From positions 1 through 64,000 of the forward strand of contig CAMJBL010000006.1 in the NCBI GenBank assembly GCA_946403845.1: a stretch of 64,000 nt of DNA, given 5' to 3'. This stretch comes from an uncultured Prevotella sp. GTDB taxonomy: Bacteria; Bacteroidota; Bacteroidia; Bacteroidales; Bacteroidaceae. The translations under genes were made by a program, and so were the position numbers. Position 1 is the stretch's first letter, and each line of letters starts with the position of its first letter. The notes under the pieces were generated by a model that did no database searches, was not told where the DNA came from, and was given only the letters and a program-made list of their open reading frames with translations. Positions 10,408-45,484 of the stretch are shown here, in pieces.

Positions 10408-10410
10408 CCC

Positions 10411-10459
10411 TCTAAACTTTAAACTCTAAACTGTAAACTCTAAACTGTAAACAATAAAC
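10411..10459 (-). repeat. Seven exact-length heptads between mreC stop and mreD start
   Basis: TCTAAAC TTTAAAC TCTAAAC TGTAAAC TCTAAAC TGTAAAC AATAAAC on + strand (sense: GTTTANA). Confidence 0.92.
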
Positions 10460-10468
10460 TCACCCCCG

Positions 10469-12378: not shown

Positions 12379-12420
12379 TTTTGACTTTGAAATTTAAACT
12401 TTGAACTTTAAACTTTATGA
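12379..12420 (-). repeat. Heptad array filling purH-mreB gap
   Basis: Minus strand: (AAG TAA)TCATAAAGTTTAAAGTTCAAAGTTTAAATTTCAAAGTCAAAAATG. Confidence 0.88.
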
Positions 12421-17386: not shown

Positions 17387-17426
17387 TTATATTTGAACTT
17401 TGAACTTTGAAGTTTAAACTTTATGA
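17387..17426 (-). repeat. Heptad array filling fucP-ADH gap
   Basis: Minus strand: (ATC AAG TAA)TCATAAAGTTTAAACTTCAAAGTTCAAAGTTCAAATATAAATG. Confidence 0.88.
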
Positions 17427-18846: not shown

Positions 18847-18948
18847 GACACTAAAGCCTCTTTAGTATGACACTAGAGGGGCTTTAGTATGATACTAAAG
18901 GGTGTTTAGTATGATACTAGAGGGTGTTTAGTATGATACTAAATGGCG
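18847..18948. repeat. 4.6 copies of a 22-bp tandem repeat, each containing a 17-bp palindrome
   Basis: Units at 18861, 18883, 18905 and 18927: TTTAGTATGATACTAAAGGGTG-type; core TTTAGTAT-G-ATACTAAA; half unit at 18847-18860. Confidence 0.93.
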
Positions 18949-24481: not shown

Positions 24482-26518
24482 TTACTTATAGGGCAGATAG
24501 CAGTTCTGCGTGGTGATGCCAGATGCGTTGTTCTCGAGTTTGCGGCTGAGCCACTTGTCGCCGAAGCCGCCACCATAGATGCCTGCACGATTCTTGTGGA
24601 GCGCCAGACGACGGAGGTCGGAGAAGCGGGTGCCCTCGAAGGCGAACTCCATGGCATACTCGTCGCAGAGCAGGTCCTCCATCGCATTGATGTAGTCTTC
24701 CTTCGTGGGATTCGTCAGACCTAAGCCGAACTGCTTGCTGATGTCGGCAATCTTGGCCGAAACAACGGTGTTGTAGCGATAAGAGGAATAGAGATCCTCG
24801 ACGGCACCAGCACCATGGAAGTGGATACCGACGAACGACTTCGACGCACCATTCCTGAAGATATCGGCGTTGGCCTGAGCCAGGAACGGCAACTTCGTCG
24901 TCAGCAGTTCATAGGACTCGGGCGTGAGATAATACTTGTCGTCGACATGCGACTGCGTCATATCAAGCACTTTCTTTCCACTCTCGTCGATAGAGTCGTT
25001 GCCGGCCTGATCCTTCAGGTAGACCTCCTCATAACGGTAAGTAGCCAGCTCGCTATGCAGACCGTTCTTCAGCACGGCGAAGGCGGCATCGGGATAGCCC
25101 ATGCGGTTGACAGCCTCGGCCAGGTGGAGCCAGACGGTGGCATTGCGGTAGAGGTAGACGTAGGCCGTCGAGGGCTTGTAGGTGTAGACATAGGCGGAGT
25201 CGGCACCCTCACCCTGACAGATGATGTTAGCACGGGCATCGCCGAGCGGCTCGCTGCGGACAATCCAGTTGAAGGGCGCCACCTTCACCTGCTCGGTAAA
25301 GAAATAGTACTGCGCGCGGCGGGCGGAGTCGCAGTAGGCCTGCGACGGCACCACCTGGATATCCTGCGTCTTGGGGCAGTTGAAGATGTCCTCCATCGGG
25401 TCGTCGACATTGACAACGCTGGCATTCTCCGTGCCATAGTAGTTATAGCCGAAGGCAGCGGGGATGTCGGTCGTCTGACCCATGGTGTAGTTGACGGCCA
25501 TCGGGATGTAGGAGATGACGTCGCCAGGGGCTGCGCTGTGGACGAAGGAGTTTTCCCAGATAGGCATCTGATTGTAGAGGGAAGCGTTCTTCGCGTTGTT
25601 ATAGTCTACCGGCCACTCGGTGAAATTCTTGAAGATGGGGCTGTAGCGGCTGTAATAAGGAGACATATTATCATTGTAGTTCACAGAGATACTGCCATTC
25701 AATCCTTCATACCGCAGATACTGGAAATAGCACGTGGCGGCCTTCTCGTATTCGCCCAGCTCGAGATAGATGTCACCCAGCACGACATTGAGCGGGATGA
25801 AGCACTTGCTGGGACGGATGAACTTCTCCTCGCTGCCCCAGTTCAACATACCTACCGAGCGCGAACTTTGATTGAACGTCGGCACGGCAATCTGCTCGTC
25901 GCTGTAACGGGCCTTGAGGCTCTCAAGCATCTGGGCCTCACCCTGGAGAATACCCTCATAGGCGGTCATCGAGGTATTGGCATTGATCTGCCCGATGGTG
26001 GTTACAGGCTCTGTAATGTAAGGCACAGCGCCATACTGACGGGCGAGCTGCAGATAGGTCCATGCACGGAACGAGGCGACAGCGGCGTATTCGTTGCAGA
26101 CCACGTTACGGGCACCCGTAGCAAGCGTGGTGTCGCGATGAGCCAAATAGTAGTTACAGTTGTTGATAACCTTATAATACAGGTAAACACTATCATACTT
26201 ATTGGTAGCATCGGCCGTGAACGAAGCCAGATCACGCAGGTGGAGAGAGGCCTTGTCAGTGGGCTTTACCAGGTCGCCACGCATCTCGTTCTGGAAATAA
26301 TACTGGTCAGCCAGTTGCTGCATCGCCTGCATGATACCATAGGCATAGAAGACGGAGTCGGTCTTCTGGTCGAGGGCCGGTTCGAACAACTGACGTGAAC
26401 TGTCTGACTCGAGCATGTCGGAGCAACTGGTGAAGAGTGAAGAGGTAAGAGGTAAGAGGTAAGAGAATACTCCTGCCATGAAAAGCCTCACCCAATTCTT
26501 ATTGATTATCTTATTCAT
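24482..26518 (-). CDS. SusD/RagB-like outer-membrane lipoprotein (SusD2)
   Basis: Lipobox FTSCSD; YYLAHRDTTLATGARNVVCNEYAAVASFRAWTYLQLARQYGAVPY; FAFEGTRFSDLRRLALHK. Confidence 0.87.
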   Translation of the reverse strand: MNKIINKNWVRLFMAGVFSYLLPLTSSLFTSCSDMLESDSSRQLFEPALDQKTDSVFYAYGIMQAMQQLADQYYFQNEMRGDLVKPTDKASLHLRDLASFTADATNKYDSVYLYYKVINNCNYYLAHRDTTLATGARNVVCNEYAAVASFRAWTYLQLARQYGAVPYITEPVTTIGQINANTSMTAYEGILQGEAQMLESLKARYSDEQIAVPTFNQSSRSVGMLNWGSEEKFIRPSKCFIPLNVVLGDIYLELGEYEKAATCYFQYLRYEGLNGSISVNYNDNMSPYYSRYSPIFKNFTEWPVDYNNAKNASLYNQMPIWENSFVHSAAPGDVISYIPMAVNYTMGQTTDIPAAFGYNYYGTENASVVNVDDPMEDIFNCPKTQDIQVVPSQAYCDSARRAQYYFFTEQVKVAPFNWIVRSEPLGDARANIICQGEGADSAYVYTYKPSTAYVYLYRNATVWLHLAEAVNRMGYPDAAFAVLKNGLHSELATYRYEEVYLKDQAGNDSIDESGKKVLDMTQSHVDDKYYLTPESYELLTTKLPFLAQANADIFRNGASKSFVGIHFHGAGAVEDLYSSYRYNTVVSAKIADISKQFGLGLTNPTKEDYINAMEDLLCDEYAMEFAFEGTRFSDLRRLALHKNRAGIYGGGFGDKWLSRKLENNASGITTQNCYLPYK
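26435..26462 (-). repeat. Heptad repeat TTACCTC in SusD2 signal-peptide coding sequence
   Basis: + strand GAGTGAA GAGGTAA GAGGTAA GAGGTAA; encodes FSYLLPLTSSLFTS. Confidence 0.9.
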
Positions 26519-31712: not shown

Positions 31713-31747
31713 ATCAATTTTCAATTATCAATTTTCAATTATCAATT
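31713..31747 (-). repeat. Five heptads (ATCAATT/TTCAATT alternating) filling fas2-fas3 gap
   Basis: ATCAATT TTCAATT ATCAATT TTCAATT ATCAATT, then GAT TTA(stop). Confidence 0.93.
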
Positions 31748-31750
31748 GAT

Positions 31751-34039
31751 TTAGTACCAGTCTTCTGTCATGGTCTGGCTATTGACGATGTCAAGCGGCA
31801 CCAGTTCAATGAAGTCGAATGACCAACCGAGGTTGGCATCGTTCACCAGGTTCTTAATGCGCAGCCAATAGTCTTTACCCTGCTCAAAACGCTGGGTGGT
31901 GATGATACGACGGAGCATCATCGTGCCATAACCTGATTCCGAGCGACAGCTGGTAGAGCCGATAATCTGGCTGGCTGCCGAATAGATATCATTCTCATTA
32001 TAGGTCAGCGGGTCAGTAACCGTATTGTACGTACCACGTGAGAAAGAAGCCGGCGCGCGCATATAGCCACGCACATGCATACGCTGGTCGCTCTCCACGC
32101 CGCAGTCAGAGGTCTCATCGTCGGCACGGTTCACGATATCCTCATAACCGATGGTAGCATCCTGATAGGGGTTAGCGCAGGCATCGAAGGGGATGCCGAT
32201 GGCTACCATATCTGACTGTTTGGACGTATTACCGAGATAGAACTGCATCAGTCCACCACGCGCCATCGGGGGATAGATGATACGCAACTCATAATCGCCA
32301 GTAGGCACATGAGGCAGTTTGACCGCGAAATCGTAGACATCCCATCCCTGGAACTGGTCGGAGTTGTGAGCTCGCCAAGCGCCCATCACGCAGAAGCGCA
32401 GCAGGGTTCCGGGATTATAGCAGACGATATTGTCGAAATAGTTATTCTGGAAAGCAATACGGTTGCCGTCACCACCACCATTCAAGGTGCTCACCTCTGC
32501 CGGTGTGGCAAAGCGCAAGCCATTATTGATAAGTTCATAGAGGAAGGTGGAAGAATCGAGGCGCAGACGCTCATGGAGCGCATCCTTTGCGTTCTGGTCG
32601 TATTTCAGAATACCCTTGATACGATGGATATAGCCGTTCAGCGTCTCAATACTCTTGTTACGGTCGATAGACACACCTTTGAAAACCAGCGAATGGTCAC
32701 CATCGTTGGGCATACCGAACATACCGAGTTTTTTGGTCAACGTATTGTTGGTCAGATAACGGTTCAACCACAAATCCTTGGTGGTCTTGGGGTTTGTTTC
32801 CCACACCTTCAGGAGGGTGTTGGGCAGCATGGTCTCGAAGTACTCCTGCGGCTCATAGCCGAAGCAGACATTCCAAGAGGCATTGGTCTGGGCATTCTTC
32901 TCATAGACAATGCGGTCGATAGGCATACCGGCACGCAGGATGTGATAAGCCACAAACATGTTCACCACATTAAACGGATTGGTATAGTCATCGCCTGTGC
33001 TGATGGTAATACCCTTCTCACCAATGTAGTCATACCAGGCACCACAGTTACCATACCACTCAGCACACTTCTTCTTCAGGTCATCGAAGTTGTTGATACC
33101 TGCAGCACGGAAAACATCGTCGGTCTCAGCAAAAACCGTCCACTTGACCATACACTCCTTAGGATAATAGATGGAGTTACCATCACGGTCGTTGTGGTTG
33201 TTACCCAAGTCGTAGGTCTTGGCCGTACCATCAGGATTGTTCTTACGTTCAATCATGAGAGTATCGGTATATCCCGTCACCTCAAGGGCTGCATAGAAGA
33301 TGCTCAGGTCTTTCTCTCCCTCCACACGCAACTGGTCGTCGGTGGTGCGGTCGGAACGTGGAATCACGTTCGAGCAGATATGCAGGATACCGTTGATGGC
33401 CTCAATATCGCCTTCAAGGATAGCTGAGATATCATTCAGGCTGGTCAAACCGATATATTCCTCTTTGTAGGCATTCTCACCAAAAGTGCCGACACGGATA
33501 CTACGTCCCGTCTTCATGGTGGTCCATGTGGTGGCAGTACCATCGAGGTCCACCTGCATGTGTTCCTCTCCGGAGAGATGGAAACGAGCGATATCATCAC
33601 ATAGAGAGTCAGACATCAGTTCTACCTTCGCCATCACGTCGAGGCTGTTCCAGCCTGCATCTTCTTTGATGCCGTTGTGCTTCAGCTTCGCCTTGGAGAT
33701 GAGATAAGACTCGTCGTTATACAGACTATCGAGGTAAGCATTCACACCATCATTAACGGGTGCGAAACAAGTATACTCACCATACGTTCCCATATACTTG
33801 TCGAAACTGCCCTTCTGCAGGATGCGGTAGAAAGCGCTCAAGTCAGAGCGGTCACGCAACATCTCTGCAATGGTCTTCTGGTCTGAGGAGAAGAGGTTTG
33901 AACCATCCGGTTCCTCATTACAGGAGGTCATCAAGAGGCAAGAGGTAAGAGGTAAGAGGTAAGAGAAGACGATAGTGAGTACTAATCGGCCCACTACCAT
34001 GAGCCTCACCCAATTCTTATTATTTATCTTCGTATTCAT
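31751..34039 (-). CDS. Fasciclin-like domain lipoprotein (fas2)
   Basis: Lipobox LMTSCNE; SDLSAFYRILQKGSFDKYMGTYGEYTCFAPVNDGVNAYLDSL, INGILHICSNVI; start MNTKINNKNWVRL at 34039. Confidence 0.75.
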   Translation of the reverse strand: MNTKINNKNWVRLMVVGRLVLTIVFSYLLPLTSCLLMTSCNEEPDGSNLFSSDQKTIAEMLRDRSDLSAFYRILQKGSFDKYMGTYGEYTCFAPVNDGVNAYLDSLYNDESYLISKAKLKHNGIKEDAGWNSLDVMAKVELMSDSLCDDIARFHLSGEEHMQVDLDGTATTWTTMKTGRSIRVGTFGENAYKEEYIGLTSLNDISAILEGDIEAINGILHICSNVIPRSDRTTDDQLRVEGEKDLSIFYAALEVTGYTDTLMIERKNNPDGTAKTYDLGNNHNDRDGNSIYYPKECMVKWTVFAETDDVFRAAGINNFDDLKKKCAEWYGNCGAWYDYIGEKGITISTGDDYTNPFNVVNMFVAYHILRAGMPIDRIVYEKNAQTNASWNVCFGYEPQEYFETMLPNTLLKVWETNPKTTKDLWLNRYLTNNTLTKKLGMFGMPNDGDHSLVFKGVSIDRNKSIETLNGYIHRIKGILKYDQNAKDALHERLRLDSSTFLYELINNGLRFATPAEVSTLNGGGDGNRIAFQNNYFDNIVCYNPGTLLRFCVMGAWRAHNSDQFQGWDVYDFAVKLPHVPTGDYELRIIYPPMARGGLMQFYLGNTSKQSDMVAIGIPFDACANPYQDATIGYEDIVNRADDETSDCGVESDQRMHVRGYMRAPASFSRGTYNTVTDPLTYNENDIYSAASQIIGSTSCRSESGYGTMMLRRIITTQRFEQGKDYWLRIKNLVNDANLGWSFDFIELVPLDIVNSQTMTEDWY
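33933..33967 (-). repeat. Heptad repeat in fas2 signal-peptide coding sequence
   Basis: + strand AAGAGGC AAGAGGT AAGAGGT AAGAGGT AAGAGAA; encodes VFSYLLPLTSCLLMTSC. Confidence 0.9.
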
Positions 34040-34066
34040 AATTCTATTTCCAATTATCAATTATTA
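34040..34066 (-). repeat. Short heptad array (CAATTAT) at SusD1-fas2 gap
   Basis: Minus strand TAT TAA TAATTGATAATTGGAAATAGAATTATG; about 2 units. Confidence 0.65.
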
Positions 34067-35830
34067 ATACTTCGAGGATGATTTGTATACAGGATTCTGT
34101 ACGAGACTGGTATTGATTTCCACCTCATCCTGATTAATCGGCATATAGAGATAGCGCTCGTCACGCATCTTTGCCTTCATAGCAGTAGGCACGGCATACT
34201 TACGCAGCGCCAGGTCAAAGAACAAATCACTATTGGTGACATAGCCCTGTGTCAGTTTCTTCGTCAGGTCGGCCTTTGTCTCTGTGTGACGGTAGTTGTA
34301 GCGCATCAGGTCGAACCAGCGTTTGCCCTCAAAGCACAACTCACGTGCACGCTCGGCCAATACCAAGTCCTCCATTTTGTCTCTGTAGACGGAATACTTC
34401 ATGGCGTAAGAACCTTTGTTGGCATCAGACAAAGCACGATCGTTAACGAACTTACAGATGGCAAAGGCCTCCTCATTGCGGGTATCACCTTCGGCCTTAC
34501 CACCCAAATTATAGAGTTGCACCAGCGCCTCAGCCTTCATCAGCATCACATCGGTCAAACGATACAGGATCCAATTCTGATAAACCGTTGAACGGGTATC
34601 GCGCTTGCTGTCGGCACTATTATTGATTCCTGCTGATGTGGTAGCCACGAACTTACGGACACCGAACTGCTCGGTATTGGTACTGGTAGCATCGTAGACA
34701 TACTCATATAGACGTTGATCCACGCTATTTGCCCAGACGCCATTACCGGTAGCATCTACCTTTCCGTAAATCGGCGCTGCCTTCAGATAGCCATAGCCAT
34801 TGCTGCTGGCATTGTTATAACGGAAGTACATCTGGTCAAGGCCGGTATTGGTGGCATTAGAGTTACGGAACTGCAACTCGAAGATGCTCTCATCAGCATT
34901 CTGGCCCGTCTGACCAAAGATGTCAGCATACATATTATTATAATCGGAGAGATAGTAGTCTTTCTCCACTTCATCGGCGCCATAACGGCGACGACGAGGG
35001 TTCTGCTCATAGGCCTCCTTCTTGGCTGCAATTACCTTATCGCAGTATTCCACGCAGGCCTCATAGTCGCTCGCATCACGATTGACAGAACCGCGCCAGA
35101 GGTAGATATCAGCCAGAATGGCATTGATACCGTCCTGATTCAGGTAGCCCTTGTCACGCCAGTCACCGTAGGTAGAACCTGAGATGGCATACTTAGAAGC
35201 CTCCTGCAGGTCGTTGATACACATGGTGAGAACAGAGTCTGGATTTGCCTGCGGCGCATTCAGATCGTCACTACTGTTCAGGTATGCGCCAGGTGTCACA
35301 GGAATGTCATGGAACACCTTTGTGAGATAGAAATAGCAGAACGAGCGCAAAGCTAACATCTGTGCCTTGTTGGCATCATAGTCACCCCGTGTATAGTCAG
35401 GGTCCACGGCAATCACGCTCTCAGCCTTCTCAAGAACCAGGTTGCAGTAGTTGATGGCCGAGTAGAAGGGATACCAGGAGGTAAACGCATTCTCTGTCTC
35501 GATATTGCAAGAATAGATCTGCGCCAATGCTGTCTTGTAGGTAGCAGAGGAAGGCAGCGTGGAGGTTACCACGAGTTCGTCGGAACGGAAGTCACCCCAG
35601 ATGATCATATTGCGGATAGCAGAAGCGTCACGCAACTGGGCGTAAGCCGTTGCTACGACGGCATCCACTTCGCTTTTCTTCTGCCAATAGTCGTCATCGA
35701 CAGTCTTGTTGTCGGGCAAGATCACAGTATCGACACAGCCAATCAAGAGGTAAGAGGTTAGAAGTAAGAGGTAAGAGCATACCCCATTCATCATCCTCAC
35801 CCGATTTTTATTATTTGTCTTCGTATTCAT
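34064..35830 (-). CDS. SusD/RagB-like outer-membrane lipoprotein (SusD1)
   Basis: INYCNLVLEKAESV..DANKAQMLALRSFCYFYLTKVFHDIPVT; ARELCFEGKRWFDLMRYN. Confidence 0.9.
   Translation of the reverse strand: MNTKTNNKNRVRMMNGVCSYLLLLTSYLLIGCVDTVILPDNKTVDDDYWQKKSEVDAVVATAYAQLRDASAIRNMIIWGDFRSDELVVTSTLPSSATYKTALAQIYSCNIETENAFTSWYPFYSAINYCNLVLEKAESVIAVDPDYTRGDYDANKAQMLALRSFCYFYLTKVFHDIPVTPGAYLNSSDDLNAPQANPDSVLTMCINDLQEASKYAISGSTYGDWRDKGYLNQDGINAILADIYLWRGSVNRDASDYEACVEYCDKVIAAKKEAYEQNPRRRRYGADEVEKDYYLSDYNNMYADIFGQTGQNADESIFELQFRNSNATNTGLDQMYFRYNNASSNGYGYLKAAPIYGKVDATGNGVWANSVDQRLYEYVYDATSTNTEQFGVRKFVATTSAGINNSADSKRDTRSTVYQNWILYRLTDVMLMKAEALVQLYNLGGKAEGDTRNEEAFAICKFVNDRALSDANKGSYAMKYSVYRDKMEDLVLAERARELCFEGKRWFDLMRYNYRHTETKADLTKKLTQGYVTNSDLFFDLALRKYAVPTAMKAKMRDERYLYMPINQDEVEINTSLVQNPVYKSSSKY
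35745..35779 (-). repeat. Heptad repeat in SusD1 signal-peptide coding sequence
   Basis: + strand AAGAGGT AAGAGGT TAGAAGT AAGAGGT AAGAGCA; encodes VCSYLLLLTSYLLIGC. Confidence 0.88.
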
Positions 35831-35884: not shown

Positions 35885-38800
35885 CTAGAAGCCGAAGTTA
35901 AGGCTGGCTGTGATAGACTTAGATCTCGGTGTGGTGGCCCCATCAGAGGCTGGTGTATAAGTACCGGAAGCGATTTCCGGATCAATACCCGTGTACTTCG
36001 TCCAACAGAAGATGTTGTTCATTGTCACATAAGCCGAGAGCGTATTCAGACCAAGTTTCTTGATTGATTTCTTGGGCACGCTGTAAGAGAGCTGCAGGTT
36101 GTTGAAACGCAGGAACGAGCCGTCCTCCACGAAACGTGAACTAACCTGATAGTTATAGCCCGTGCCATAGAGGGCACGCGGTATCTGTGTCACGTCGCCA
36201 TCCTTACGCCAGCGGTAGGTAACCGAAGAACACTGGTTCTCTGTGCCATACATGCTCTCCAAACCCATACGCGCCGTATTGATGATCTTGTTACCCCAAC
36301 GGAAGTTGAAGCGTGATACCAGTTTCCAGTTACCATACTGCAAGGTAAAACTGAAACCTCCTTGCATCTTAGGCAGAGAATTACCCAGATACTTGATATC
36401 GAGCTCATTGACAGTACCATCGTGATTCACATCCTCATAGATGGCGTCACCACCCTTGAACTCATACTCCGTATCACCATAATAATAAGTAAGGTGCTTG
36501 GGCACACCGGTATTCGTCATAATGACCTTACCCTCTTCATCGGTTGCCACAGGGAAGGTCTTACCATCTGCGAGCTGCTGGTTGATCCATGCCTCGTAGT
36601 TCCAGTCATAAGACTCACCACGGGCCTTCGCCTGTGACTGCAACTGGAGCTGCTTCGTGTTATAGTTGGTAAGGTAGTCGTAAGTGTACTGGAACACGCC
36701 TAAACTCTGGAATCCGTAGATAGAGCAAAGCGGGTCGCCCACCACGACGCGGCTCAGGATGGATCTGGAGCCACGATTACTCCAGCTGGGCTGTGAGTTC
36801 AGGTTGTCCAAGACACGCTGGTCCATCTCCAGCAGTTTGTTGACGTTCTGAGCCAGGTTTACACTGGCTGAGACAGAGAATTTCCCTACTTTGAGGAACC
36901 GGTTCGCATTCACCGACAGCTCCCAACCTTTGTTCTCCATCTCACCCACGTTTCCATAGGAAAGTGTGGTGGAGGTGTTCCATGTGGCTGAGGTCGGAAT
37001 GGGAATACCCTTCATAATGAGGTCTCTGGTATTCTCCTTATAGAGATTCAAATCGAATTCAAACATATCATTGAGAAGACCTAAGTTGAAACCGAGGTTC
37101 AAACCTGTCTTCTTCTGTGGGCGAAGGTCGTCGAGCTTCATTCCACTCATCGTGGTATAGTAGCTGGTGCCATAGCGTCCAGCACGCGAATTGTACTGGT
37201 TGAAATAGTTGTCAACAGCAACGCTGGAGCTACCTGTGATACCCCACGAGCCACGGATACCGAACATAGAGACGACCTTACGCAAGGGTTCAAAGAAAGC
37301 CTCTTCGCTGAGATTGTAGCGCAACGATACTGAAGGCGAGATGAACCAGGGATTCTTTGGACCGAACTTCGAGTTACCGTCAGCTCGCAGCGAGAAGCCT
37401 ACATTATAACGCGACTTATAAGAGAAGTGGGCGTTGTAGACAGCGTTCTGCCAAGCCGACTTGGTCGTAGAAGGCTGGTTATCCATACCGATCAGACTGG
37501 CATCGATCGTAGCCGACTCAATACCGTTGGGGATTGCGTTCTGGCCGATATACTGGTAGGTATTCTTCTGCGTACCTGCCTCGTAGCGTGCCAACATCGT
37601 CAGATTAAAATCTTCATTCTTGAAGGCCGGTGTAAAGATCAGTTCCAGACGGGAACCCATCTTGAACTGATTCGATTCCGTATTCGTGATAAAGTTATAA
37701 TCACTATCGGTATAACTGCCGTTTGAGAGACTTCCCGGCATATAAGTAGGCTTCGAATAAGCATAGATATCAAAATAGACTCGGCCATTAAAGGTCAGAC
37801 GGGTCTGTCCGTTACCTGTACCGAGCAGTTCGTACTTGATATTGAAGTCGGGAACGATACTATAGGTTTTTTCCTTCTGCCAAGAATTGTTGGCGTAGGC
37901 CACAGGGTTACCGATGGCCACGATGTCGGACAGCTGTTCGGAAGTGTAGTTGCCGTCATCAGGTGTCATGCCGCTCACCGTCGGGTTCATCAAGAAGTAC
38001 TCACCTGTATTGTTGCCATACTGGTCGTAGCGGTAGATGCTGGCATTCGGTGCCATTGCCAGAGCCATAGCAAGTAGCGAGTTGTTTGTACTCTTGTTGT
38101 TCTTACTACTACCATAAGTATAGTTCTTCAGGTTGTCGGTATACGTCAACGCGAAGTTGGTAGAGAAACGGATGCGGTCAGACACGTTGTAGTCGAGCAC
38201 CAGACGTGTGGTCAAACGATCCATCTTCTGTTTGATAATGGTTCCCAACTGGTGGCTATAGCTACCCGAGATACGGAAGGTAGCCTTCTGACCACCACCC
38301 GAGATATTGAAGTTAGCCTCATGCTGTTCACCGAACTGCTTGATGGCTTTCACCCAATCGGTGTTCTTGTTCCAATTGTTGGCCTCGGCCCATGACTCAG
38401 CAGGGATATAGTTGATCTCGTTGATGGTCGAAGTGGCTGAACTGCTCTGTGTGGGGTTGTAGAACTCCTCCTTGAGCATCATGGTGTAGTTGTCACCATT
38501 CAGCAGGTCATAGCCGGCAGGCATCCAGGTACCCGTAAACTTATAACCCAGCGTCACCTTTGGTTTTCCACGTGCACCGCGCTTGGTGGTAATCTGAATC
38601 ACACCGTTGGCACCCTGCGATCCCCAGATGGCCGTTGCAGCGGCATCCTTCAACACGGTGATATTGGCAATATCATCCACACTCACAGCGAGCAGCGACG
38701 AGAATGCCTCCTCGTCGATATTCTCCGGATCGAAGTCGGCCTTGTCATATTCAAAGATCTTGTCATCGACCACAATCAGGGGTTCTGCGTTACCACTCAG

Positions 38801-39340
38801 CGTCGACACGCCACGCAGACGCATGGAAGTACCGGCACCGAGGTTACCTGAGTTGCTGACAATATCCAGACCGGCAATCTCACCTTGCAGCGCCTCGTCG
38901 GCTGAGGTGAAGGCCATACCATCCACCTTGTCCATGCTGAAGGTCTGCTGAGAAACGGAAATCTCGCGCTTGTCAATATTCAGACCACCAGAACTGGTGC
39001 GACGACCCTTGACGACCACTTCAGAAACGGTAGTGTTCTCACTCTCCATTTTGATATTGAAGGTGGTCTGGTTGCCAATCGTCACGATTTTGGTCTTATT
39101 GCCTACATACGAGAAAACGAGCTTGTTCTTCGGGTTCTTTATCTCCATAGAGAAGTTACCCATCATATCAGTCTGTGTGGCGCTGACGATACGGTTGTTA
39201 GCGTCGCGCTCCACCACGTTGGCCATCATAATCGGTCCCATGGCATCTTCCACCGTACCTGATATGACCTTACCCTGTGCCCACATCGTCTGAGCGATGA
39301 CAGCAAACAGGAACGTCAATAGGAATTTATATTTCGACAT
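35885..39340 (-). CDS. SusC/RagA-like TonB-dependent transporter (SusC1)
   Basis: [71 protein letters not shown] start at 39340 (track extends to 39406). Confidence 0.93.
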   Translation of the reverse strand: [1151 protein letters not shown]

Positions 39341-39343
39341 ATC

Positions 39344-39371
39344 TATAAACTTTAAACTATAAACTATAAAC
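39344..39371 (-). repeat. Four heptads (TATAAAC/TTTAAAC) just upstream of SusC1 ATG
   Basis: TATAAAC TTTAAAC TATAAAC TATAAAC. Confidence 0.92.
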
Positions 39372-39378
39372 ATTCCTC

Positions 39379-42264
39379 CTAATACTGTCGATTGCTGTTG
39401 TAACACAGTGGTGTGTCAATACCATGAACGGTCACGAAGGCAGACGTCTCAATGATATTGTAACGACCATACGTACTGTTTGACTTCTCAGAGGTCGTGA
39501 TGTCACGGGCAATCAGGTTGGCAGTGTTTGAAGAAGCATTGATGGTCACCGCCGTATTGGAGGCATCCTTCACCGTGAGTTTGTTGTCACCGCCAGAGAC
39601 GGTCAGCGTCTGGGCAATACCGAGTGCATTCGAACAGAACGTGGAGTACACAGGCTCTGGTATCGTCAGACCTGTCTCGGGATTATAATTCTTGAAATAA
39701 CGGTCTGCGAAGAGTGAACTGTTCTGCGTATGGTAACGCACGAACTTGGCCATCTTGTCCAACTGCTGCTTGACATAGCTTGCTGCATCGCTCTGACTCT
39801 TGAAGCCATACTCATCAGCAACGCTCTCCCAATTGTTGACAATAGCCATCACCTTCTTCCAGGTAGGCAGGCCCATGGTCTGCTGTGCCTTGACCATCGC
39901 CTCGTATGTCGGTGCATAGATGGTATAGTTATAAGCACTGAGCATACCCCAGTTGTCATTATCGTCAATCACGCGATAGGCCTTCATCTTGGTTTTCTTC
40001 TGGGCCTCGGTTTCGTTCTTGTCGCCAGTAACGATGCCAGCGAAGCTGTAGATCTCCTCATTGTTGAACTGCAAGCAGAAATTGAGGAAATGGTCGTATT
40101 CAGGCGCATTATTGTCGTAGTCGGCATTCTCGTCATAGAACTCCGGACGCGACAAGGTCTCCATCACACTGGTAATCGTAGGCTGGATGGGATAGTCCAG
40201 ACGGTAAACAGTACCATTCTCAATCTTGGCATCGGCACTATTGATGTCGAAGACCTCGGTGATAGTGGACCACTGGGAGGGATCAGACAATTGCAGACCG
40301 CCAGCCACCTTGTTGTCGTCGACGACGACAACACCGCCCTGCTTCGTCTTATAATATCTGTTGCCATAAAGGGCATACTGAGGATTGCCCTGTCCAGTCT
40401 CAGTAGAATCGGCCAGCACGATGGTGCAATAGTCCAGCAAGTCCTTGATCTGACTGTTGAACATACCGGTCTCGATGTTAATATCCTGAGCACCAGCCGT
40501 TTCAACATAGGAACTGAGCTGATTGTAAGGGCCTGACTGATAAATATATCTCTTGACCAGCACGTGGAAAGAACCGTCAGCCTGAGGATCGAAGCGGAAG
40601 CGCAGTCCCTTCAGTCCGTCCTCGTCCTTCACCGAAGTAGGATCGATCACGATGAACTGTGTCTCGTTGTCCGTGGGGACGAAGAGACCGTAACGGGCCT
40701 TCATCGAGAGCAAATAGTAATACATGTCTGCACCGAGCTTCGAGCCGATACCGGCTGTTGTCTGGTGGTCGTTCAGCATCTCACCCATCGTACGCATGTC
40801 CTTATAAACTGACGCAGGACCCAGTACAGAGTTATACAACTTCGGACCGAAGAGCTTATTCATCTTATACACCACACCGTTGTTGGCTATGGTGACATCG
40901 TAGTTGCCATCACTCTTTTTAAGAATGTCGTCTCTGGTGACATTGAGGAATTCGAAGGCATCATTCTGCACCGTCGAGAAGGTGCTGGGCACCGTCTTGG
41001 TGAGATAAGGCTTCATCACGTTATTCAGGATGCTGGCAAAGATCGACGGATCGTTGTTATAGATGGCATCGAGATGCTGGTTCAGCGTAGACGAAGAGAG
41101 CTCAAGTCCGGGAACGCCCAGATTCTTGAGGATATAAGCCGACTCCTTGAGGAAATAATCTTCTACGGCCTTATCATCAGGCGCCAAGAAAGCGGCAATC
41201 TCCGCATCGTCGTCAACAGGCTGACCATTCATCGTAGGATTGTAGTAGTTCCATCCCGGGTCGAAGTCAAGCAGGCGGTTGTCGGCTACTGTCATGCCTC
41301 GAATGGGCTGCGACAGCTTGGCACGCTGCGAGTTCTTGCTCAGATAGCGGATGGCAAACACGGTATCCTGACTGCTGGAGCCCGATGTCTCATTATACTG
41401 TGCCGTCAGCGTCAGGTCGGCTTCCGGGAAACAGTAGTAGTCCAACATACGTGAGATATAACGGGTGTCGCTTCCAGAACGCAGGATCTCAGCCATGTTA
41501 CCGGGATTTACGAGCACCTCGTTAAGCTGGTGGATATAACCGTTCTGACAGACCACATCAGCCTTGATAACCTTACGATCGAAGACATAAGCGTCGCCAT
41601 CCGTATATTCCTGACCGGTAAGCACTTTGAAATCGCTATTGTCTCCAGTCACCGTCATGTTGTTGTTCAACATATATTCGCCTGTCAGATGCACCATCGG
41701 TGCTACCGTGTTGTCGAATACGGCCAACATGGAGTTGCGGCTTCCTGTCTGGAAACGTGAGAAATACTTGTTATTAGCAGGCATGTCCTGGGCACTAAAT
41801 GGTGTCACGGCGTATGAAAGACGCATATTGGTAGCGTGTTTCACCAGCTGACCCTGTAACATGTTACCGGCGCTGTTCTGCTTGTTGGAAAGGGTTCCTA
41901 CGAGGATGGCATTATCGATCATCGTAGAGAACAGCAACTCTGCCTTCTGTGAATGGGTTAGCTGTTCGTAGCTGCTAACACCAAACTTGTTGTTTCCCCC
42001 TGCAAAGAATCTTGCAAAGGCATCATCATTGGCCGGGAAGATCGTCTTACTACCAGTTTTGCTCAGCACCTCCGTATACCCTAAGTCGTCTATCAACTTA
42101 CAGTACGTATCAAACGTACCCTCCAGTTGCGAAGACTGCTGTAGCTCTTTGTAGATACTCTCGCCAAGCCAAGATGGCAATTCTCCCTCCGGCACCAAGT
42201 AGTCCTTCTTACAGGACACAAGGCCTATGCACAATAGGGATGCATACAAAAAGAGTTTTTTCAT
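39379..42264 (-). CDS. Large fasciclin-like domain lipoprotein (fas1)
   Basis: Lipobox GLVSCKK; FDTYCKLIDDLGYTEVLSKTGSKTIFPANDDAFARFFAG, VCQNGYIHQLNEVLVNPGNMAEIL. Confidence 0.78.
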   Translation of the reverse strand: MKKLFLYASLLCIGLVSCKKDYLVPEGELPSWLGESIYKELQQSSQLEGTFDTYCKLIDDLGYTEVLSKTGSKTIFPANDDAFARFFAGGNNKFGVSSYEQLTHSQKAELLFSTMIDNAILVGTLSNKQNSAGNMLQGQLVKHATNMRLSYAVTPFSAQDMPANNKYFSRFQTGSRNSMLAVFDNTVAPMVHLTGEYMLNNNMTVTGDNSDFKVLTGQEYTDGDAYVFDRKVIKADVVCQNGYIHQLNEVLVNPGNMAEILRSGSDTRYISRMLDYYCFPEADLTLTAQYNETSGSSSQDTVFAIRYLSKNSQRAKLSQPIRGMTVADNRLLDFDPGWNYYNPTMNGQPVDDDAEIAAFLAPDDKAVEDYFLKESAYILKNLGVPGLELSSSTLNQHLDAIYNNDPSIFASILNNVMKPYLTKTVPSTFSTVQNDAFEFLNVTRDDILKKSDGNYDVTIANNGVVYKMNKLFGPKLYNSVLGPASVYKDMRTMGEMLNDHQTTAGIGSKLGADMYYYLLSMKARYGLFVPTDNETQFIVIDPTSVKDEDGLKGLRFRFDPQADGSFHVLVKRYIYQSGPYNQLSSYVETAGAQDINIETGMFNSQIKDLLDYCTIVLADSTETGQGNPQYALYGNRYYKTKQGGVVVVDDNKVAGGLQLSDPSQWSTITEVFDINSADAKIENGTVYRLDYPIQPTITSVMETLSRPEFYDENADYDNNAPEYDHFLNFCLQFNNEEIYSFAGIVTGDKNETEAQKKTKMKAYRVIDDNDNWGMLSAYNYTIYAPTYEAMVKAQQTMGLPTWKKVMAIVNNWESVADEYGFKSQSDAASYVKQQLDKMAKFVRYHTQNSSLFADRYFKNYNPETGLTIPEPVYSTFCSNALGIAQTLTVSGGDNKLTVKDASNTAVTINASSNTANLIARDITTSEKSNSTYGRYNIIETSAFVTVHGIDTPLCYNSNRQY

Positions 42265-42325: not shown

Positions 42326-42365
42326 AAGTTGCAAAATAACTAAAAATTATCGAATCTTGCAACTT
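42326..42365 (-). promoter_or_regulatory. Inverted repeat AAGTTGCAA..TTGCAACTT in the presumptive promoter region of the SusCD operon
   Basis: 9-bp arms at 42326-42334 and 42357-42365; TTTTGC next to one arm resembles a -7 TTTG. Confidence 0.5.
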
Positions 42366-42402
42366 TTTAACTATCTATTTTTTTAAATAGGTGTCATTTC
42401 GC

Positions 42403-42486
42403 CAAATAACTAAGACTTATTGTCAAATAACCAAGACTTATTGTCAAATAACCCACCCTTATTGCAAAATAACCCTGCCTTATTTT
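42403..42486. repeat. Four 21-bp tandem repeats upstream of the SusCD/fasciclin operon
   Basis: CAAATAACTAAGACTTATTGT / CAAATAACCAAGACTTATTGT / CAAATAACCCACCCTTATTGC / AAAATAACCCTGCCTTATTTT. Confidence 0.92.
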
Positions 42487-42501
42487 CCGATAAGTGCCAC
42501 T

Positions 42502-42540
42502 TAAAAAACATTCCCCCACAGCAGGGCTGCAGGGGAATGA
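42502..42540 (-). terminator. Terminator downstream of 942-aa protein gene
   Basis: Minus strand CATTCCCCTGCAGCCCTGCTGTGGGGGAATG + TTTTTT. Confidence 0.82.
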
Positions 42541-42560: not shown

Positions 42561-45389
42561 TTACTTCACTACGATCTTCTTACCATTCTGAATGTAGATG
42601 CCCTTCGCAGGAGCAGTCTTCAACCTCTGGCCGCTGAGCGTATAGATACCCTCAATCTGAACAGCTGCCTTTACTTTTTCTATAGCTGTCGGATCAAACG
42701 GTTCTGTTGCACCGGCTGTGATACGATCAATCTTCAGATTGTCGAACCATGCACGACGGTCGTTATTGTTGTAGTCACACTTCAGGACGAACTTGTTTGG
42801 AACAGCCTCCAGGACGAACTCATTAGAAGTGGTTGAGCCATTAACGCTGTTGATGGTGCAGTAAATGCTCTTTCTGCCATAGTCCATAATCACCTCGAAA
42901 TGAGTCTTCTCCAGAGGATTAGCGGTCACAGAGTCCGTAGCATCGGCAGGAGAAGCGTTAGCATAGCTACCACCCGACTTAGCCCAGATATAGTCCAAAT
43001 CAGCCTCACAGGTATTCGTGGTGTTCGTGCCATTATAGAAGTTGTGGAAAATACCGAAGATATCCACATCTTCTGCATCCTTCAGGTAGAAGCCGAGTGA
43101 TTTGCCACTGAGGCCCTGTACATAGAAGTCGCAGGCCACCTTCAGGATGTTAGTACCCATAGAGCCGTTCTCTGTCGGATCGAAGACAACGGTACCTTCA
43201 CCGCCACCAATGCGCAGATAGCCTTTCCACAGTTGCTCACCATTAGCCCAATAGCCCTTCTCGAATGGTTGAGAGGTATTGTCTTCTGGTGTGGTTTCAC
43301 TAAATCCAGAGAGTACCATTGAGCCCTTAGCTCCAGGAATCTTAATGGTATTATCACCTGTCTCAATATCTAATTCAATCACAACATCTTTCTCGAAGTC
43401 AATGTCAACAATCGAAGCGATGCAGTTGGCAGGAATCGTCGTTGTAAATACATTAACAGCCTCGTTCAGTTCGGCATTAGCAGCCACGATGGTGGCAGCA
43501 TTCTCCTCGCTGTACTGTGAAGCCTTCATCTGAGCCTGAATGCCCTTAGCCTTATCAATGGCAGCCTGCAGGGCATCCTTACCTGTAGCAGCATCGTAGA
43601 GACGCATCTTAATGGTTTTCTCTGCATTGTCAATGACGGTCTGCATGGATGCCAGCGTATCATTTTCTGCCACGAATTCACGATTTGCAGCAATGATAAG
43701 CTTCGTTGCCTGCTGATAAACCTCATACTGCAACAGACCGGTCTCCTCTGATGTGGTATTCACATAGGTATCTCTGTCGAATGTTGCAATGATATCATCC
43801 TGACTCATGCCCTCATATTGAGCAATCTTAGGCTCTACTTCGTCAGCTACAGCCTTCAAGGCAGCCTTGCCCCAGAGGTAGGAGTCATCAGCAAGATAAC
43901 CGGCAGCTGTGGTCAGGTTCTCACGACCTGTGGTAATCTGTGTGGTCACATTCTTCCAGTATCTCAGCTGCTTCTGGTTATACTTGTTATCGTTCTTACC
44001 ATAGAGACGGGCTTCTTTCACATAGACCACAGAACCATTTGTCTTGGTCTTGTACTCTTCTTTACAATAAGCCTTAAAACCTACTTCGTAGGTACCAGCC
44101 TCAGTAATAGGAGCAACAACTACAAATGGGGTATAAACACGAGAGTCCAAACCCTTGACCACTGAAACAATCGTATCAGCAGCAGCACCGTCAACCATCT
44201 TCACCACATAAGCAATACCATAGGCAGGGTTCCAGCCTTCATTATGGGTCCAAGATGTAGAAGTGGGATCTGCACGAAGCGCAGCGAGCGACTCGATGGT
44301 GAACACATAAGAACCTGGATCGAACGTCATCTGAGTATAGATACCCATCGGATCATTCGGGTTGCTGTATGCCCAGGAATTGTTACCGCCAAAGTGACCT
44401 AAGTCAGGATAGGCACCGCTGTTCCAGAAAGCACGTCCGGTAGGCAGACATGTCCAATCACCATAATTGCTGACTTTCTGCGTATTACCATCTGTTTCCT
44501 TAATACCCAGGTAGTTATCACTATTGCCATCCAGATAGTCATCCATCTTCTCATACAAGAATTCTGCAAGGACTTCATCTGCCACAGCTAACAGCTCGTC
44601 AAGTTCTGCCTGACCGCTCTCATCACCAAGAGCCTCGAGGCCTGCAATCACTTCAGGATAGCCGTCAAACTGAGCCCAGACATCGGCTGGCCAGTTATAG
44701 CAATTCTTATAAGCATTCAGTTTCTCCAGCATGGCATCACGCTGACGAAGGTCAGCATACTGCTGAGCCTGAGCAATCTGAAGATCGGCAATCTCAACGG
44801 TAGTCGACATGGTCATGAATGAGATGAACCAAGTGCGGGCTGTACCGTCACCAACGATAGCATAGTTAAAGGTCTGCCACTCTTCCGTCAATTCCTCCCA
44901 TGTGTTAACAATCACCTCATCTGCAGCTTCAGGATAGGAAAATGCGCCATCCGAGTTACCGGCTACCTTCACCAGATTGGTCGGTGTCTGGTAACCATCA
45001 CCAGGGATAAAAGTCTTCACAACGTCCACATATTCAGGAGCGCCCTTCAACTTGAAGCTAACGATATAGGTGGCATCTGCTGATGTAGGCTGGAATGTGT
45101 AGTACATACCCTCACCCTTGTTATTGTCATCGGTAGGATCATCCACACAAACCACAGAGTTAAGACCATCTGCATAGCCGTTGGCATTGGTGTTAAACTT
45201 CTCAGCCAGGGTCTTTCCTGCACTCTTTACAGTCCATCCAGTCCAGTCCTGGAATTTGCTGCCTTCAAGGACATCACTCGTAATCAGGAAACGTCCCTGC
45301 GGGGTGTAGACATACTCACCCTTTGTGAGAGCAAAACCCGAAACAGCAACGCACATTGCCATAAAGGCAAAAAGTAAACGTTTTTTCAT
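42561..45389 (-). CDS. Large secreted protein, FIVAR-like helical stretch, C-terminal sorting-type tail
   Basis: Signal peptide MKKRLLFAFMAMCVAVSGFA; C-term IEGIYTLSGQRLKTAPAKGIYIQNGKKIVVK; start at 45389 (track extends to 45455). Confidence 0.7.
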   Translation of the reverse strand: MKKRLLFAFMAMCVAVSGFALTKGEYVYTPQGRFLITSDVLEGSKFQDWTGWTVKSAGKTLAEKFNTNANGYADGLNSVVCVDDPTDDNNKGEGMYYTFQPTSADATYIVSFKLKGAPEYVDVVKTFIPGDGYQTPTNLVKVAGNSDGAFSYPEAADEVIVNTWEELTEEWQTFNYAIVGDGTARTWFISFMTMSTTVEIADLQIAQAQQYADLRQRDAMLEKLNAYKNCYNWPADVWAQFDGYPEVIAGLEALGDESGQAELDELLAVADEVLAEFLYEKMDDYLDGNSDNYLGIKETDGNTQKVSNYGDWTCLPTGRAFWNSGAYPDLGHFGGNNSWAYSNPNDPMGIYTQMTFDPGSYVFTIESLAALRADPTSTSWTHNEGWNPAYGIAYVVKMVDGAAADTIVSVVKGLDSRVYTPFVVVAPITEAGTYEVGFKAYCKEEYKTKTNGSVVYVKEARLYGKNDNKYNQKQLRYWKNVTTQITTGRENLTTAAGYLADDSYLWGKAALKAVADEVEPKIAQYEGMSQDDIIATFDRDTYVNTTSEETGLLQYEVYQQATKLIIAANREFVAENDTLASMQTVIDNAEKTIKMRLYDAATGKDALQAAIDKAKGIQAQMKASQYSEENAATIVAANAELNEAVNVFTTTIPANCIASIVDIDFEKDVVIELDIETGDNTIKIPGAKGSMVLSGFSETTPEDNTSQPFEKGYWANGEQLWKGYLRIGGGEGTVVFDPTENGSMGTNILKVACDFYVQGLSGKSLGFYLKDAEDVDIFGIFHNFYNGTNTTNTCEADLDYIWAKSGGSYANASPADATDSVTANPLEKTHFEVIMDYGRKSIYCTINSVNGSTTSNEFVLEAVPNKFVLKCDYNNNDRRAWFDNLKIDRITAGATEPFDPTAIEKVKAAVQIEGIYTLSGQRLKTAPAKGIYIQNGKKIVVK

Positions 45390-45452
45390 ACGCTTCGTTT
45401 TTAGAAAGTTATTAATTAATATAGATAATAAATGATTTGTCTTAATTCGGCG

Positions 45453-45484
45453 CAAAGTTAATCATTTTTTTCCTGTTATACAAA
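45453..45484 (-). promoter_or_regulatory. Consensus Bacteroidetes promoter for the 942-aa protein gene
   Basis: Minus strand TTTG-N20-TAACTTTG, about 60 nt upstream of the ATG. Confidence 0.75.

Follow-up and report, generated by a model that had tools for sequence, protein, structure and literature searches.

The four 21-bp tandem repeats at 42403–42486 of the window, the whole 64-kb stretch of Prevotella DNA that was analysed, belong to a family of intergenic repeats that is dispersed and centred on Prevotella. As arrays of this family lie scattered between unrelated genes in many genomes of rumen Prevotella, and their mirror-image half-sites recur at an exact spacing of one turn, the array is probably a general DNA-binding or REP-like intergenic element rather than the switch of the SusC/SusD operon downstream of it. 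The family is dispersed, keeps a strict spacing, conserves its half-sites more than its linkers, varies in copy number and occurs independently of the SusC/D operon.

Architecture of the array and spread of the family

The array is housed in a 296-bp gap between a gene of 964 aa and the fasciclin–SusC–SusD operon. The features of this region are as follows.

34064–35830: SusD gene, third in the operon
35885–39406: SusC gene, second in the operon
39379–42264, minus strand: gene for a fasciclin-domain protein, the first downstream of the array
42328–42341, minus strand: −7 box (GTTATTTTGCA) of the operon promoter, kept in orthologues
42356–42364, minus strand: −33 box (GTTGCAAG) of the operon promoter, kept in orthologues
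42396–42409: diverged core (ATTTCGCCAAATAA) at the promoter-proximal array edge, recognized by eye and from the repeat-family listing
42403–42486, minus strand: 21-bp tandem array of four units AATAA-N7-TTATT-N4
42417–42430: inverted core TTATT-N4-AATAA, unit 1
42438–42451: inverted core TTATT-N4-AATAA, unit 2
42459–42472: inverted core TTATT-N4-AATAA, unit 3
42480–42493: diverged core with GATAA at the distal array edge
42509–42539, minus strand: intrinsic terminator of the 964-aa gene, immediately 5′ of the array (14-bp stem and T-run; −23.6 kcal/mol, z −6.2)
42561–45455, minus strand: co-directional gene upstream of the array (964 aa), without a Pfam family

The four tandem units had been described in an earlier note made from the sequence, and self-comparison bears this out: 53 of 63 positions match at a lag of 21, against a best of 36 matches over all lags from 15 to 30 when the 64-kb window is shuffled 100 times. 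The TRF score is about 101 and the units are spaced 21, 21 and 21 bp apart. The DNA curvature predicted from wedge parameters is ordinary for a tandem repeat. CRISPR arrays are defined by repeats of 24–48 bp with unique spacers of similar length; the 21-bp units here, with linkers of 7 and 4 nt, do not fit this. A search of the window against Rfam returns a single match, to a tRNA at the edge of the window. One or two in-frame TAA codons fall inside the match in many relatives of the 964-aa gene.

Each unit consists of two inverted 5-bp half-sites and holds two dyads. The motif GTTATTTGNCAATAAG given in the earlier note does not hold as written, and AATAA-N7-TTATT-N4 describes the unit better, since linkers and centres vary freely between units. 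When 40 stretches surrounding cores were compared for the spacing x in AATAA-Nx-TTATT, there were 112 occurrences at x = 7 and 0–4 at each other value from 2 to 15. The N7 was left free by the main, single-core retrieval pattern, which set the N4, so that the N4 is not independent, and some of the 40 places recur in a two-unit search that did set the N7. Conservation was measured at 26 loci chosen without the two-unit pattern, by comparing the units next to the seed. At +21/−21, identity is 0.86/0.75 in the half-sites, 0.49/0.35 in the centres and 0.59/0.55 in the linkers, against a background of 0.25; this likeness of neighbouring units could be partly due to recent duplication. A position profile of 126 units, selected on half-sites and used for flanks and linkers only, has G/C at the linker edges with a tendency to identity (GG-N3-GG or CC-N3-CC).

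The half-site centres are alternately 12 and 9 bp apart (mean 10.5), which puts neighbouring sites roughly one turn from each other, along the same face of the helix. Together with the strict spacing and the better conservation of the half-sites, this supports the earlier suggestion of helically phased sites; the regulator or sigma-factor role attached to it is taken up below. The combination of strict spacing and free linkers points to half-site recognition by a dimer.

The family was sought in 300 Prevotella genomes with the half-site pattern AATAA-N7-TTATT-N4-AATAA-N7-TTATT, allowing up to one mismatch. This yields 546 sites in 58 genomes, with up to 74 in a single genome, against 6 for the reversed pattern, both figures being sums over per-genome counts. 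As this pattern reads the same on either strand, each site turns up twice and was counted once. Matches to the two-unit pattern are found at many loci in 12 of the 300 genomes and the reversed control gives none. Single cores are common in some genomes (35 in G226, 22 in G205) and absent from others (G267 and G016), and the half-site pattern is rare in other genera of the same family (19 sites in G358, 1 in G417). The source genome has it at five places, on contigs C6 (the window array), C13, C15, C93 and C103; the C15 copy follows a T-rich, terminator-like stretch and precedes a promoter-like TACCTTTGCC. The exact 16-mer was rejected as a regulon motif, as its four scattered two-mismatch matches outside the array in the source genome equal the control level. 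An order-wide search with a TAAGTG-based tandem pattern gave no matches, and a search of the available literature found no paper on such repeats in Prevotella.

It could be proposed that the array is a mutational satellite, a functionless slippage duplication in spacer DNA whose 21–22-bp period reflects a replication or repair process. In sampled stretches of several Prevotella genomes, intergenic tandem repeats with many different, unrelated sequences do have a peak at 21–22 bp (G267 by itself has 35 in 800 kb), and the copy number of the array differs between relatives. However, the same half-sites at N7/N4 spacing are met again at scattered loci whose linkers differ, and the half-sites are less variable than the linkers; this explanation is considered rather unlikely.

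The operon promoter and its orthologues

On the minus strand, the array sits 139–222 bp ahead of the start codon (ATG at 42264), in agreement with the earlier estimate of about 140–220 bp. It lies about 80–160 bp 5′ of the likely transcription start and 40–125 bp upstream of the −33 box. Bacteroidota promoters of the sigma-ABfr type carry a −7 element TAnnTTTG and a −33 element TTTG (PMC7366714). The operon boxes at 42328–42364 fit this promoter with one mismatch in the −7 box, and the promoter is separate from the repeat family. It also accounts for the “diverged fifth copy” AGTTATTTTGCAAC of the earlier note. This sequence lies outside the array, and the nearest unit is 70 bp from the −7 box, which is not a multiple of 21, so that the −7 and −33 boxes are out of register with the array. 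Because 19 orthologous promoters without an array have an identical GTTATTTTGCA in this position, the supposed fifth copy is the −7 box itself.

Orthologues of the first gene of the operon occur in many rumen Prevotella. The core promoter GTTAAAAAGTTGCAAG...AATTTTTTGTTATTTTGCA is widely retained upstream of 32 of them, and the exact GTTATTTTGCA was counted in 21 of the 32. The array is found upstream of only two, those of the nearest relatives (L039 with about five units, L066 with two), giving copy numbers of 2, 4 and about 5 across three close relatives. As only these two carry the array while the promoter is kept, the array does not belong to the conserved control elements of the operon. 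The L038 orthologue, with 95% protein identity, is without the array and has a different gene inserted upstream. Two genomes (G083 and G103) have no array at the operon and carry the repeat family elsewhere. Unrelated 22-bp arrays are present upstream of several orthologous operons (L048, L053, L054, L064 and L068).

These comparisons bear on the proposal that the direct repeats are bound by an activator of the SusC/SusD operon upstream of the −33 box. The position would suit an operator, the 21-bp spacing fits same-face binding and the array is retained in the two closest array-bearing relatives. It is possible that the array has a role at the promoter, where an activator could act. Nonetheless, 30 of the 32 orthologous operons, including the one with 95% identity, are without it, and the same family occurs at unrelated loci and between convergent genes. 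An operator array is therefore improbable, and the role as regulator or sigma-factor sites of a SusC/D promoter, put forward earlier, is not upheld: orthologues keep the promoter without the array, and the family is present at many loci without SusC/D. An operator of a SusC/D regulon would recur upstream of other SusC/D genes, and no such gene was seen among the 20 array-flanking genes scanned. The statement that no HTCS or ECF gene lies by the operon agrees with the Pfam scan, in which neither domain was found among the part of the window ORFs covered.

Genomic context and comparison with known repeats

Forty arrays were placed between genes called by our own ORF heuristics, by which single placements may be wrong: the flanking genes are co-directional for 21 arrays, convergent for 14 and divergent for 5. 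There is a weak excess at convergent pairs (14/40, where such pairs hold 21.6% of the intergenic bases of four genomes; p 0.036), and the divergent deficit, measured against the same intergenic bases, is not significant. The neighbours are mixed and include GH115, a release factor, an aminotransferase and DAP epimerase, among others. Several arrays start 7 nt from a stop codon whose TAA belongs to the AATAA half-site. There is no general association with adjoining terminators (2/53 against 6.8%), although one is present at the window locus. Among the 20 flanking genes scanned, two HU-HIG genes and two VapE-domain genes adjoin arrays of the family (L260, L265, L261 and L272). The abundance of HU-HIG genes was tried as a discriminator and rejected, as they are abundant in 25 of 25 genomes tested. 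Arrays that turn round between convergent genes form perfect hairpins of 17–18 bp at L269 2935–3045 and L278 2975–3055.

The nearest known kind is the REP/BIME class of Proteobacteria (PMC2817692, PMC3733652). Both are short inverted repeats that are intergenic, dispersed, clustered and species-patchy, and both have mostly co-directional or convergent neighbours, as do 35 of the 40 placed arrays. In the source genome, the repeats are dispersed, multi-copy, intergenic and inverted as REP elements are, with only five places. Unlike REP/BIME sequences (PMC2817692, PMC3733652), the family has AT half-sites of 5 bp, strictly spaced by N7 and N4, and repeats in tandem every 21 bp; it is without the GTAG/CGTC tag, and a RAYT was not found in several genomes rich in the array. 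Heptamer intergenic direct repeats such as TAACTGA (PMC4679880) and general prokaryotic heptamers (PMC6344855) are likewise tandem and intergenic and also occur in Bacteroidota. However, the array family has a period of 21 and not 7, inverted half-sites and no fixed position relative to the start codon.

The preferred reading, to which about an even chance is given, is that of a REP/BIME-like array whose inverted half-sites on one DNA face are probably bound cooperatively by a putative dimeric protein, and which is not the operator of the operon. For its binder and function, we infer the following scheme. A dimeric DNA-binding protein would recognize TTATT-N4-AATAA and could coat the array cooperatively, with its sites on one face of the DNA. 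The coated array may then serve as a chromosome-organizing or insulating element, with a role comparable to that of REP/BIME sites. By analogy with BIMEs, gyrase or a nucleoid protein might bind it.

Classical REP/BIME sequences, non-autonomous elements spread by a RAYT transposase, would share the intergenic, inverted, dispersed and species-patchy nature of the arrays, and the mirrored ones form long hairpins. This origin is very unlikely, as the array-rich G226, G222 and G205 (80–92% complete) give no match to the Y1 transposase (PF01797) and the tag is missing from the profile of 126 units. Least probable of all is an RNA-level element, with hairpins at mRNA 3′-ends acting in termination or stability: mirrored arrays do have 17–18-bp stems (L269 z −6.7, L278 z −6.1) and some arrays begin at a stop codon, but the window array folds only moderately on its transcribed strand (z −1.5), most arrays are direct with A/U-only stems, and the covariation sought in the linkers has the opposite sign, their G/C edges being identical and not complementary.

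Other repeats and the wider class

The window contains further repeats. At 18850–18943, 5′ of an MFS transporter gene, is a tandem array with a period of 22 bp, made up of a 17-bp palindrome (TTTAGTATCATACTAAA) and 5 further bp; a diverged relative lies at L101 2799–2875, and a strict pattern found no copy in the source genome. Tandem repeats of 7 and 14 bp lie near gene starts at 10410–10461, 12384–12416, 17392–17422, 31713–31747 and 39343–39371. Three ORFs of the SusD/fasciclin group have AAGAGGT heptamer arrays within their 5′ parts (26440–26465, 33933–33965 and 35745–35777), where slippage would shift the reading frame, unless the true starts are further down.

Shuffled controls are less palindromic than the units of 21–22-bp repeats in Prevotella (Stouffer Z 4.9, 59 units), although most single units are not palindromic. 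An A/T half-period did not prove to be shared by all such arrays in general. A few 21–22-bp repeats are also found in a small sample of other Bacteroidales, and the class is thus perhaps not confined to Prevotella. It is conceivable, though doubtful, that Prevotella holds a wider class of species-specific intergenic arrays of 21–22 bp (two helical turns), many palindromic and with an own half-site per family, each perhaps with a co-evolving DNA-binding protein, which together would be an undescribed chromosome-organizing system.

The finding extends beyond a single operon to a repeat family that is spread over the genome and strictly built on one-turn spacing. For Prevotella, it also brings a caution, in that tandem repeats near SusC/D promoters need not be operators. 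The half-site pattern provides both a simple search pattern and a bait DNA for seeking the array-binding protein.
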